From Methanobrevibacter sp. (GTDB lineage: Archaea > Methanobacteriota > Methanobacteria > Methanobacteriales > Methanobacteriaceae): 34,408 nucleotides of DNA. Shown here piece after piece: positions 3,459 through 14,540 of this stretch; the first letter of the stretch is position 1; every line of letters starts with the position of its first letter. The notes below the pieces were generated by a model. That model did not search any database, was not told the DNA's origin, and worked only from the letters and a program-made list of their open reading frames with translations. The DNA lies in contig NZ_JAFRJO010000075.1 in NCBI RefSeq assembly GCF_017432245.1, positions 1-34,408 on the forward strand, given 5' to 3'. The position numbers and the translations under genes were made by a program.

Positions 3459-3797
3459 TCATTGATGTTTCTTGTGAGAAAACTCAAGAAACTCAATTCT
3501 ATTCTCTTTTTTGCAGAATGAATAATATAACCTGAATGAATCTGCAACATAAACTTCTTGTTGACCTTTACGGTTACGAGACAAATGCTTGCCAACATCA
3601 GGATTTAGAAAGATTTGTTTGATCTTCTTCAATAATTGAGATAAAACGCTTTTATCCAATTTCTTTAGAGACTTGAAAAAATCTTTCTGATATATCCATT
3701 CTATTATTGAATCGCCTAAAATCTCTTGAAGCACAGCATTAAGCTGACTTTCGTTTCTGATTTTATTAGGGCAAGATGCATAGATCTTGATAATCAC
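3459..3797 (-). CDS. RelE/ParE-type toxin with N-terminal extension
   Basis: The C-terminal 80 residues (from about 33) look like a RelE-family ribosome-dependent mRNA interferase or ParE relative. They contain the basic helix YQKDFFKSLKKLDKS, a second lysine-rich helix, the central strand EVYVADSFRLYYSF and the C-terminal EFLEFSHKKHQ. Residues 1-32 precede the usual RelE start and may be a fused remnant or a wrong start. The reading frame begins with a GTG inside the GGTGAT ribosome binding site at 3793-3798, which is awkward; an internal start would give a standard-size toxin. It lies 16 bp after the 33-codon gene at 3814-3915 and converges with the gene ending at 3447. Confidence 0.7.
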   Translation of the reverse strand: MIIKIYASCPNKIRNESQLNAVLQEILGDSIIEWIYQKDFFKSLKKLDKSVLSQLLKKIKQIFLNPDVGKHLSRNRKGQQEVYVADSFRLYYSFCKKENRIEFLEFSHKKHQ

Positions 3798-9796: not shown

Positions 9797-10219
9797 TTAA
9801 TGGAATTCTAAAGTCCGATACATCATCAAAAATCCTTCTTTATCAGGATTATTCTCTCCAAAGCCTAAGAAATTAAAGCTAAAGGCATCATGATCATTTA
9901 TTGTTGATAAAGAATGGGTATTCAAAGGAGGTTCATGACTTGTATCCTTTGCTATGAGCTCATGAGTTTCCTTGTTTCCAATAATAGTTAGATGAGAATC
10001 TTCAACGATTAAGCTATCTTCCCTTGGAATGTCTTCAATTGCATTCTTAAGATATTCCATAGACAATCCTTCTTGAGGATACTTGAACACCATAACTCTG
10101 CTGAATTTGCTGTCACAGTCAAGTACTGCTATGCAATTTTCAATATCCTCTGCTTCAAGCAATTTCCAATTATTCGGATACTTAAAGCTTAATTCATCAT
10201 TTTTAAACATATTAGACAA
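9797..10219 (-). CDS. PsbP/DcrB-like protein with TTG start
   Basis: A 140-aa protein of the Mog1/PsbP/DcrB-like fold: the N-terminal NDELSFKYPNNWKL matches the 'F-x-Y-P-x-x-W' opening of this group, followed by strands and a helix (MEYLKNAIEDI). Paralogues are at 10303 and 14106. The start is taken as TTG at 10219, because AGGAG (10228-10232) lies 8 nt away and the product then begins MSN like the paralogue at 14106; the next ATG at 10210 is 17 nt from that site. No signal peptide, so cytosolic, unlike bacterial DcrB. Function unknown. Confidence 0.7.
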   Translation of the reverse strand: MSNMFKNDELSFKYPNNWKLLEAEDIENCIAVLDCDSKFSRVMVFKYPQEGLSMEYLKNAIEDIPREDSLIVEDSHLTIIGNKETHELIAKDTSHEPPLNTHSLSTINDHDAFSFNFLGFGENNPDKEGFLMMYRTLEFH

Positions 10220-10302: not shown

Positions 10303-10791
10303 TTATTCGAATTCAACTGAATCCATAATAGCTAAATAATCATTGTAAGCGTATGGGAATTCCTTAAAGTGCATCAATTCAAATACATACATGTTTCCAT
10401 CATTGAGCAATGCAGAAGTATAGTTTTCTAAAGTTATACGCTTTTCATCTTCAGATAATTCCTCAATGTTTTCTTTGACTTTCCCATCTTCACCAATCAC
10501 AGAATGGGCAATAATATTGTAAACTGGCATTCCATTTAGGTTTAAAATTCTAGATTCAACAATATTCCAACCTTGTTTTTTGAAATTCTCTTTAAATGAA
10601 TCTTCAAGCTCAGCAACTGCATTGACTTCACCAGCATCATTTTTATATACTGTAATTGTAGATGGATTGCCTTCTACAACTTTTACTAAAGCCTTGATAC
10701 AATTTGGAGCGACCATTTCTTTATTTTGTTCTTTCCAATTACTTAAATATCTAAATTTGATTCCTTCTTCATCAAATTGGACTTCATCCAT
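10303..10791 (-). CDS. PsbP/DcrB-like protein, 162 aa
   Basis: Member of the same small family, opening with EEGIKFRYLSNW and closing with NMYVFELMHFKEFPYAYNDYLAIMDSVEF, which parallels VYIFELRTISDLVSKFMEIVRTFEI in the gene at 14106. The start is set at the ATG at 10791 with GGTGAT (10795-10800). A TATA box on the minus strand at 10823-10830 puts transcription start near 10800, which would exclude the upstream TTG at 10818. It leads the run 10303-9797-9142. Cytosolic, function unknown. Confidence 0.75.
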   Translation of the reverse strand: MDEVQFDEEGIKFRYLSNWKEQNKEMVAPNCIKALVKVVEGNPSTITVYKNDAGEVNAVAELEDSFKENFKKQGWNIVESRILNLNGMPVYNIIAHSVIGEDGKVKENIEELSEDEKRITLENYTSALLNDGNMYVFELMHFKEFPYAYNDYLAIMDSVEFE

Positions 10792-10822
10792 AGGATCACC
10801 ATTTAAATTGATACCCAATAAA

Positions 10823-10914: not shown

Positions 10915-11715
10915 TTATTCTCCACTTTCAAGCAAATAATCATCTGGAATTAGTTCTTCCAATTGAGTATAAGCCTTGCTTGAAATAGCATCCTTATGAA
11001 TTTCCGGTTCCTTGACAATAGTCAATCCCCTTATTCTTCTTATGATGCTGGTTTCACCTAATTCCTTATTGATCTCATTAATTGTTGCAGTCAAAGTTTT
11101 ATTAACAACCTCATCAAGCATGTTCTTATTGGTTCTAAGAATTATCTCAAAGATTTCCTTATGCTTCTCTTCCCTTTCACGGAGTCTTGAGAGTTCTCCT
11201 GCATCAAAACTCATCTTTGTCTTTAAGACATTCATGTCCTGCAATAATTCGATTCTTTCTTCATTTGATTCATTTAAATCCTTATTCAATTGCTTGATTT
11301 CAGAATTCAAATCATCAATATCCCCATTTAACTTTTTAACTTCGTCAATGAGAGAATTAGATTCTGAATCGGATAAAACACTGCTATTGATATAATTTGC
11401 TTTTTCAATTTGAGACAATTTAGTGGTAAGTTCTAAATTAATGTTCTCCAATTCCTCCACTTTTGAGAAAAGAATCTTTTCTTTAGACTTTGCTTCCTTA
11501 AGGTCATATTCTAATTTTACAACAGCTTCATCATCTGGGACTACTTCCAAAGTGGACACTTCGATTTCAGAAGAAGTTTTCAATTCCTCATATTCCTGAG
11601 GAGTCAAGATTACAAAATCTCCCTCTTCAAGATTATGTTTTTTCACATCTTCCTTACCAATTGTGAGACTAATATTACCTCTTGATTTGTTAATTTTCCC
11701 AGTCTTGATAATCAT
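10915..11715 (-). CDS. AbrB-like N-terminus fused to long coiled coil
   Basis: A 266-aa protein. Residues 1-45 (KINKSRGNISLTIGKEDVKK, then LEEGDFVILTPQEYEEL) resemble a swapped-hairpin AbrB/SpoVT DNA-binding domain. Residues about 65-190 are a near-continuous coiled coil with heptad spacing and many Glu, Lys, Asp, Ser and Leu (DEVKKLNGDIDDLNSEIKQL, KDLNESNEERIELLQDMNVL). Residues 190-240 are helical with TATINEINKELG, and the end is acidic. It could be a transcription or chromosome-organising factor that oligomerises. The transcript appears leaderless, with a TATA box about 25 bp upstream of the ATG, and an inverted repeat covers the start. No exact family recognised. Confidence 0.65.
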   Translation of the reverse strand: MIIKTGKINKSRGNISLTIGKEDVKKHNLEEGDFVILTPQEYEELKTSSEIEVSTLEVVPDDEAVVKLEYDLKEAKSKEKILFSKVEELENINLELTTKLSQIEKANYINSSVLSDSESNSLIDEVKKLNGDIDDLNSEIKQLNKDLNESNEERIELLQDMNVLKTKMSFDAGELSRLREREEKHKEIFEIILRTNKNMLDEVVNKTLTATINEINKELGETSIIRRIRGLTIVKEPEIHKDAISSKAYTQLEELIPDDYLLESGE

Positions 11716-11932: not shown

Positions 11933-11945
11933 TTTTGAAAAAATT

Positions 11946-12076
11946 AAAATTAAAAACTAAAAAAATAGAATAAAAAAATCAAAAAAGAATTAAAAAAAAT
12001 AAAATTAAAAACTAAAAAAAATAGAATAAAAAAATCAAAAAAGAATTAAAAAAAAAATTAAAATTAAAAACTAAAT
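11946..12076 (-). repeat. Tandem T-rich 55-59 bp repeat after the esterase gene
   Basis: The unit beginning ATTAAAAACTAAAAAAA recurs at 11949, 12004 and 12063 (spacings 55 and 59 bp; the last copy is cut short by the esterase stop). On the minus strand it reads as repeated oligo-T runs directly behind the esterase gene, so it can act as a multiple terminator. Confidence 0.65.
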
Positions 12077-12078
12077 AA

Positions 12079-13863
12079 TCACCATAAGAAATTTGATTCA
12101 TCACTCATGCATTCATTGACCCAATTGATGAAATTTCCATTTGCAGATCCCTTTCTTTCAGCTTGGCTGTGGCCTTGACCCCACACTTCATTGAATTCAA
12201 CACTATCCACATCACCAATCTGCATCAAAGCTAGAGCCAAATTGGCTTCAACAGTGAATGAAGTGTCTGTCTGTTCAATTCCTGCGTTTATTCTCCAATA
12301 TTTAGCAGGATTTGATGATCCGATTCCATCATAGTAAGGAGAAACATAATACAATGGATTATACATATCGGAACGGTTAAGTGTAGTGTAATTGAATCTA
12401 TCCAATTTTTTCAAATCATTTGCATAACTGTTTGCTTTTGAGGAATCATAATCAGAGAACTCAGAGTATTTATCTGAATTTGCCTTTAAGACATTTGCCA
12501 TAATGCTATCAAAGTGCAATGATTCATCACCTGTACCGAATAATTCATTTTCAGCCTGGTCCTTGCCTAAATCATCAAAGGCGCCTACATCTTTAGTTGG
12601 GGATTTGCAATGTTTTACAAATGCTTCAATGCTTGTGATTTCTGCAGTGTTTGTTGAACTGTTATAGATAATCCATTCCTCGTCTCCATTCAATGAATCA
12701 ATATAATCCTGTGGAGTCCTATAAGTTCCTGAACTTGATTCAGTAAGATCACTTGAAATAAAGACACCATCAGGTACAGACCCCATATCCCTGCCTTCAC
12801 CGGAACTAGGGGAGTATGGGAAACTGGTTTCATTCAAGAAATTGTTCAAGGAATCCTCTACAATTTGAAGCATATAATCATAATAAGGTCCAGAAGCATA
12901 GATTCCATCTTCAGACTCTTCAAGACTTAAAGGTTTTCCATTAGGACTTCTAAGGCCTAAATCATTAATGTATTTTGCATAGGCACTAGCCAAATCATCG
13001 GATAATGCACCTGTCCAAGTGCCAGAGCCACGTGTTCCTTCACTAGAGTATTGGCCCATAGTCCATTCATAAGCCTCATCAGCAGTGTCTAAAGATATGA
13101 TAGGACACCAGCACATTGCTCCACAAATGCTATCAGATAACTTGTTTCCATTCCTATCTATAAGAGCAGCCCCAATGGATTCTAGATATGGTGTGTACAA
13201 TTCACTGTCTCCACTTGCACCTAAAACAGCACTTTGAGCTCCACCTCCACTGTGACCAAAGGAGAAGATCCTTTGACTGTCACCAGGTAAGGTATCGTCA
13301 TTGAATTTCAAGTAAAGCACAGCAGCTTTTAAATCAGCTACTCCCCAAGGAGCGCCTCCAGAGTAATTGTATCCATTTTCCCTACCTCTGCAACCTGCAT
13401 TGACATAAATGAAACCCTCATCAAGGAAATCCTTAACTTCATTAGCATTATATCTGGTAGGGGCTTTTTGAGCAGAATATCCTGCTGTGTTAATAGGCAT
13501 GACAATAGGGGCAGTGGATGCAGAATAATTTCCAACATGACCGTCTATCACTGTACATGTATAGGTTCCATTAGGATTTTCCTCACTTTTAAAGTAATCT
13601 CCAGGCACATAAATTCCTAAAGACTCATATTTAGTTGTTTCGGGATTTGTACAGTATGCCAGTCCAAGTTGATAATAGATATTGTTTTTCTCATCATATT
13701 TCCAATTGGACATGTCAATGGTTAATTCCTCATTCAATTCTGTGAGATTAACATTATAATTATTAGTATCATTCAATAATCCCATTTCACTTGCCGCCGC
13801 CAATATTGCAAGCAATGCAATCACTACTGCTATAAGCAAAACAAGTTTATTTGTTCTTCTCAT
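12079..13863 (-). CDS. Secreted alpha/beta hydrolase, tannase (subtype A)-like
   Basis: A 594-aa serine esterase. Residues 1-25 are a basic start plus hydrophobic segment (KLVLLIAVVIALLAILAAA), a signal peptide or membrane anchor. The rest matches bacterial tannase-type hydrolases: LGIYVPGDYF, VNAGCRGREN, WGVADLKAAVLYLKFNDD, the nucleophile elbow GHSGGG with Ser205, CPIISLDTADEAYEW, and WGQGH with His565. D533 lies 32 residues before the His, as expected for the acid of the triad. Such enzymes cleave galloyl or related esters of plant phenolics; the real substrate here is unknown. The start is at the ATG at 13863 with GGTGTGAT. It is unusual in an archaeon and common in gut bacteria, so transfer is likely (inference). 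Confidence 0.8.
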   Translation of the reverse strand: MRRTNKLVLLIAVVIALLAILAAASEMGLLNDTNNYNVNLTELNEELTIDMSNWKYDEKNNIYYQLGLAYCTNPETTKYESLGIYVPGDYFKSEENPNGTYTCTVIDGHVGNYSASTAPIVMPINTAGYSAQKAPTRYNANEVKDFLDEGFIYVNAGCRGRENGYNYSGGAPWGVADLKAAVLYLKFNDDTLPGDSQRIFSFGHSGGGAQSAVLGASGDSELYTPYLESIGAALIDRNGNKLSDSICGAMCWCPIISLDTADEAYEWTMGQYSSEGTRGSGTWTGALSDDLASAYAKYINDLGLRSPNGKPLSLEESEDGIYASGPYYDYMLQIVEDSLNNFLNETSFPYSPSSGEGRDMGSVPDGVFISSDLTESSSGTYRTPQDYIDSLNGDEEWIIYNSSTNTAEITSIEAFVKHCKSPTKDVGAFDDLGKDQAENELFGTGDESLHFDSIMANVLKANSDKYSEFSDYDSSKANSYANDLKKLDRFNYTTLNRSDMYNPLYYVSPYYDGIGSSNPAKYWRINAGIEQTDTSFTVEANLALALMQIGDVDSVEFNEVWGQGHSQAERKGSANGNFINWVNECMSDESNFLW

Positions 13864-13919
13864 AATCACACCACAATCTAATTTTAAACTATTTAATAAT
13901 TATACTCTTAATAAATAGG

Positions 13920-14105: not shown

Positions 14106-14531
14106 TTATTCAAGAATCTCAAAAGTTCTGACTATCTCCATGAATTTGGAAACTAAATCGCTGATGGTTCTAAGTTCAAATATATAAACGAATCCATCGT
14201 CTAAAAATACAACTGAAAACATTTCAAAATCAATTTCTGGAATTGAAATCTTCGAATGGATTTGAATAGCTGACCTTTTTCCAACATTTGCTATTTCAGA
14301 GGATACTATTTGGGCATTGTCATTCAATAGACTTTCCTCAATTATTTCCTTAAACTCCTCCAAAGAAGGCATTTCAGATTGAAATGCAATTACATTTAAT
14401 AGGCTTCCATCCACATAACTTAAAGTAGCTATGCAATCAGGATTATTCTCTAATGGGATTTCCTCCAATTCCCATTCATCACTGTATTTGAATGAAAGTT
14501 TTTCATTTGAACATGTATTTAAATTAGACAT
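14106..14531 (-). CDS. PsbP/DcrB-like protein, 141 aa
   Basis: Third member of the local family. It opens MSNLNTCSNEKLSFKYSDEW, then has strands and a helix (SLEEFKEIIEESLL), KRSAIQIHSKISI and FVYIFELRTISDLVSKFMEI. The start is set at the ATG at 14531, so the product begins MSN like the gene at 9797; a weak GAGTG site lies upstream. Cytosolic, no signal sequence. It is separated from its paralogues by the AbrB-coiled-coil gene and the esterase, so the family probably spread by local duplication. Function unknown. Confidence 0.7.
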   Translation of the reverse strand: MSNLNTCSNEKLSFKYSDEWELEEIPLENNPDCIATLSYVDGSLLNVIAFQSEMPSLEEFKEIIEESLLNDNAQIVSSEIANVGKRSAIQIHSKISIPEIDFEMFSVVFLDDGFVYIFELRTISDLVSKFMEIVRTFEILE

Positions 14532-14540
14532 AAAAAGCAC

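Follow-up and report, generated by a model that had tools for sequence, protein, structure and literature searches.

The window, i.e., the whole stretch of 34,408 nucleotides that was analyzed (Methanobrevibacter sp., contig NZ_JAFRJO010000075.1), carries on its minus strand a tannase gene lying between two smaller genes. The features to which the text refers are the following.

14106 to 14540, minus strand: upstream flank gene, with a weak PsbP-like match below the cut-off; it adjoins the coiled-coil gene where the tannase is absent
13869 to 13872, minus strand: GGTG, an SD-like stretch upstream of the ATG at 13863, read from same-genus copies
12079 to 13863, minus strand: subtype A tannase gene, 594 amino acids, ATG at 13863
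13789 to 13845, minus strand: hydrophobic N-terminal segment (residues 7 to 25), signal peptide or membrane anchor (Kyte-Doolittle, window of 19)
13249 to 13251, minus strand: Ser205, nucleophile in GHSGG (49-row alignment)
12592 to 12594, minus strand: Lys424, gallate-binding position (alignment with subtype B; PMC8958541)
12550 to 12552, minus strand: Glu438, gallate-binding position (alignment with subtype B; PMC8958541)
12271 to 12273, minus strand: Gln531, in the column of the subtype B catalytic Asp (alignment)
12265 to 12267, minus strand: Asp533, gallate-binding Asp (alignment with subtype B; PMC8958541)
12169 to 12171, minus strand: His565, catalytic His in GQGH (49-row alignment)
10915 to 11715, minus strand: downstream flank gene, for a putative coiled-coil protein (from weak matches and inspection of the sequence)

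The open reading frame at positions 12079 to 13863 is real. Its stop end is at 12079, and an in-frame GTG at 13869 starts the longer version of the ORF. A GGTG stretch that resembles an SD sequence directly precedes the ATG in the window and, unchanged or almost unchanged, in nine other copies from the same genus, and the ATG at 13863 was therefore chosen as the start. An A-rich tandem repeat (positions 11938 to 12075, period 56, 2.4 copies) directly follows the tannase stop. Three small proteins (9797 to 10219, 10303 to 10818, and 14106 to 14540) display weak PsbP-like matches below the cut-off and belong, together with the coiled-coil gene, to a single conserved cluster. A small minus-strand ORF at 3459 to 3797 resembles, by reading, a RelE-type toxin.

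Comparison of the protein with NCBIfam models revealed a full-length match to NF041555 (subtype A tannase) at 831.6 bits, for a cut-off of 550, with an E value of 4.4e-250 that excludes a chance match. The score against NF041556 (subtype B tannase) was 251.5 bits, below the cut-off of 300, which leaves the protein outside subtype B. Its length agrees with the approximately 600 residues of subtype A, and among solved chains, tannases come closest (best, 6yq4 at 1.6e-41). Assignment to the tannases by the first-pass annotation, which pointed to subtype A for comparison, was thus borne out; subtype A is a bacterial-type family. As judged from its sequence, the gene is a full-length subtype A tannase gene. 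The host most likely belongs to the M. ruminantium/olleyae type of Methanobrevibacter, and the gene is predicted to encode a working enzyme. The N terminus had been described as a signal or anchor segment, and its hydrophobic character was confirmed: residues 7 to 25 are strongly hydrophobic, with a mean Kyte-Doolittle value of 3.10 in comparison to at most 1.02 for all later 19-residue stretches. The segment is kept in nine same-genus copies (2.73 to 3.14), and the tannase is most likely membrane directed, as predicted from this hydropathy.

The active site was analyzed in an alignment of 49 proteins, of which 32 come from archaea, 11 are subtype A tannases of Clostridia, and 6 belong to subtype B. 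Eight of the 57 sequences extracted were omitted before alignment and tree construction, namely, three pieces of the broken gene of G310, the fragments L041, L036, and L110, and the near-duplicates L104 and L029. Ser205, within the GXSXG motif, and His565 are conserved, as in subtype A. The column of Gln531 contains Gln in all 43 subtype A rows and Asp in all 6 subtype B rows, indicating that the window protein has the Gln that replaces the catalytic Asp in subtype A and lacks the Asp triad of subtype B. Asp533 falls in the column of the second, gallate-binding Asp of subtype B and completes, with Lys424 and Glu438, the Lys/Glu/Asp gallate-binding set of subtype A. In the active subtype A enzyme CbTan1 of Clostridium butyricum, the corresponding roles are assigned to Ser216, Gln577, and His611 and, for gallate binding, to Lys469, Glu483, and Asp579 (PMC8958541); the spacing from Gln to His is 34 residues in both proteins. 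The triad proposed initially (Ser205, Asp533, and His565) is therefore correct for Ser205 and His565 and mixes two roles at its third position, because Asp533 aligns with the gallate-binding Asp and Gln531 with the catalytic one. Asp533 may nonetheless serve in both binding and catalysis, a dual role that the authors of PMC8958541 leave undecided for the binding Asp of subtype A enzymes. An AlphaFold2 model computed from a five-row alignment had a mean pLDDT of 33.8, probably because the alignment was too shallow, and was not used for active-site geometry or fold search.

By alignment with characterized tannases, the following mechanism can be proposed. The hydrophobic N terminus would translocate the chain, and outside the membrane Ser205, assisted by His565 and Gln531, would attack galloyl esters that Lys424, Glu438, and Asp533 hold in place, with release of gallate and sugar. 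The benefit would be to lessen gallotannin stress at the cell surface rather than to supply nutrients. Relief from tannins is the most likely role, as the literature has also proposed, and the detoxification suggested by the first-pass annotation is plausible on the basis of the family and residues. A tannase-fold esterase that now prefers another ester (a feruloyl or protocatechuoyl ester, or a methyl ester from which methanol would be released) appears unlikely. The sole Pfam match of the window protein is to the broad BD-FAE domain (31.5 bits for a cut-off of 26.8), and TanALp is reported to use protocatechuic as well as gallic esters (PMC8958541), both of which would fit such a preference; however, the window copy retains the residues at all three gallate-binding positions, even though these vary in 5 of the 32 archaeal rows. 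Release of methanol as a substrate, also put forward earlier, found no support, and it would need methyl gallate to be a main natural substrate. Among the archaeal copies, Lys is replaced by Arg at the gallate-binding position in G071, G086, and G091b, Asp by His in G089, and both Asp by Asn and Glu by Gln in G116. These altered copies (L017, L019, L020, L021, and L031) perhaps reflect changed specificity or decay.

Members of the NF041555 family scoring above the cut-off were detected in 29 of the 151 genomes of the phylum, which belong to 3 of its 20 sampled genera. Within the genus of the window, 10 of the 19 genomes carry a tannase, the source genome included. Five of 391 genomes passed the cut-off in the Clostridia sample. 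Further family samples, with the starting genome counted in each, gave 2/21, 5/70, 3/194, and 1/38, and the one positive genome among 398 in a phylum sample was the starting genome itself. The subtype A gene of one Clostridia genome (L047 in G310) is broken by in-frame stops. None of 61 stretches of viral contigs that matched a pattern encoded a relative. The 29 matching plasmid records were all below 60% identity, and the tannase-named entries among the 20 listed were of subtype B.

The same pair of flank genes encloses the tannase in the seven genomes in which both flanks are visible (G000, G032, G023, G030, G031, G033, and G027), with aRF1 nearby in all of them except G027, which has a short contig. 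Four outlying genomes (G017, G019, G028, and G029) have an empty site, where the flank genes are directly adjacent. In a tree computed from seven flanking proteins of 16 genomes, all 10 carriers fell into one group (99/98) with G022, in which a contig end interrupts the tannase site, and the four empty-site genomes lay outside. In the gene tree, all 32 archaeal sequences group together as a single clade (98/99), in which the window copy belongs to a clade of ten rows from its own genus. The dN/dS ratios ranged from 0.10 to 0.23 over 13 pairs. The gene and flank trees conflict on the placement of G030 and G027, so that some recombination is likely. Together, the shared site, the empty sites, the flank tree, and the dN/dS values support one gain followed by constrained inheritance. 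Most simply, the gene was gained once within the genus, on the stem of a group of about 11 sampled species, and was then inherited under purifying selection.

These data also bear on the remaining accounts of the origin of the gene. An old gene of the ancestor of the archaeal family, lost in most lineages, would explain the single clade of the 32 archaeal rows, but 17 of the 20 sampled genera of the phylum are without a tannase, tannase loci differ between genera, the outermost branches of the window's own genus have an empty site, and two second copies from that genus nest in another; we consider such an origin quite improbable. Recent transfer from a rumen Firmicute at the species level is very improbable. 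Clostridia do carry subtype A tannases, with 46 to 53% identity to the window protein, and the empty sites show that the gene was gained within the genus. Against this, the nearest rows to the window copy all come from the same genus and are up to 90% identical over the kept columns, a tannase occupies this site even in species whose protein identity falls to 67%, and the third-position GC content of the tannase gene (0.29) is like that of the neighboring genes. The shared site and the flank tree contradict this transfer, and the single archaeal clade and the vertically inherited clade of the genus speak against recent acquisition by the source species. The proposed acquisition from gut Firmicutes stays plausible as to the source. 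In a tree in which Clostridia supply all of the bacterial subtype A rows, holding Clostridia as one clade costs just 0.71 log units (p-AU, 0.453), so that the tree does not decide the direction of transfer; a bacterial origin of the gene is probable. Bacterial DNA binned with a methanogen, for which the fragmented draft (104 contigs, 87% complete) could be invoked, has practically no likelihood, since the contig bears aRF1 and an archaeal-type UMP kinase and its gene order recurs in seven genomes, a synteny that refutes the artefact.

Having weighed these alternatives, we find it probable that the window encodes a membrane-directed, working subtype A tannase that would relieve tannins by cleaving galloyl esters, and that its gene, of bacterial source, entered one site once and then evolved under purifying selection. 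Ruminant diets are supplemented with tannins to lower methane production, and direct inhibition of Methanobrevibacter has been described (cited in PMC4987999). If a group of rumen methanogens keeps a tannase with predicted export under selection, its carriers are the species predicted to resist tannin treatment, and the map of presence and absence points to carriers and non-carrier relatives for comparison.

Other loci were found outside this site. The tannases in G038, G051, and G039 adjoin a malate-dehydrogenase-like ORF, and second copies in two genomes of the window's genus (L080 in G018:C45 and L084 in G032:C4) sit among biotin-synthesis-like ORFs, all of these ORFs being named by reading. 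The two second copies nest in the clade of another genus, which suggests transfer of the tannase between Methanobrevibacter genera. More tentatively, and with somewhat less than even confidence, the tannase could be a circulating fitness gene of gut Methanobrevibacter: a single archaeal clade would occupy several unlinked sites in at least three genera and pass between them, with some binding residues altered, and its carriers would withstand tannin-based methane control.

The first-pass annotation regarded the enzyme as unexpected for a methanogen, a view that does not hold, since signal-peptide-bearing tannases of M. millerae SM9 (sm9_1028) and ZA-10, 50% identical to TanALp, were published in a 2016 genome paper that proposed acquisition from a rumen microbe and a role in tannin tolerance or detoxification (PMC4987999). 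A 2023 review repeats this account (PMC10658910); the tannase sequences given in PMC8378336 are bacterial only. For the M. ruminantium-type lineage, its fixed site, and the empty sites, we found no report in the open-access literature that was searched. What is new here is a lineage separate from the published one, in its own genus, with a fixed site that is empty in relatives.

The window tannase shares with those of M. millerae SM9 and ZA-10 a methanogen host, export (predicted for the window copy), relatedness to subtype A, of which TanALp is the prototype, and the hypotheses of transfer and tannin tolerance (PMC4987999). It differs from that of SM9, presumed to be G038, in its genus group, its chromosomal site, and a protein identity of about 57%. 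Similar to CbTan1, it comprises about 600 residues, is exported by prediction, and combines a Gln at the acid position of the triad with a Lys/Glu/Asp gallate site (PMC8958541). CbTan1 and TanALp (Lactiplantibacillus plantarum), neither of which is in the alignment, come from bacterial hosts and have measured activity. The subtype B tannases FnTan (6yq4), CbTan2 (7q6y), and TanLp (4j0c) are related to it by sequence but are shorter and have a catalytic Asp where the window protein, which scores below the NF041556 cut-off, has Gln531.
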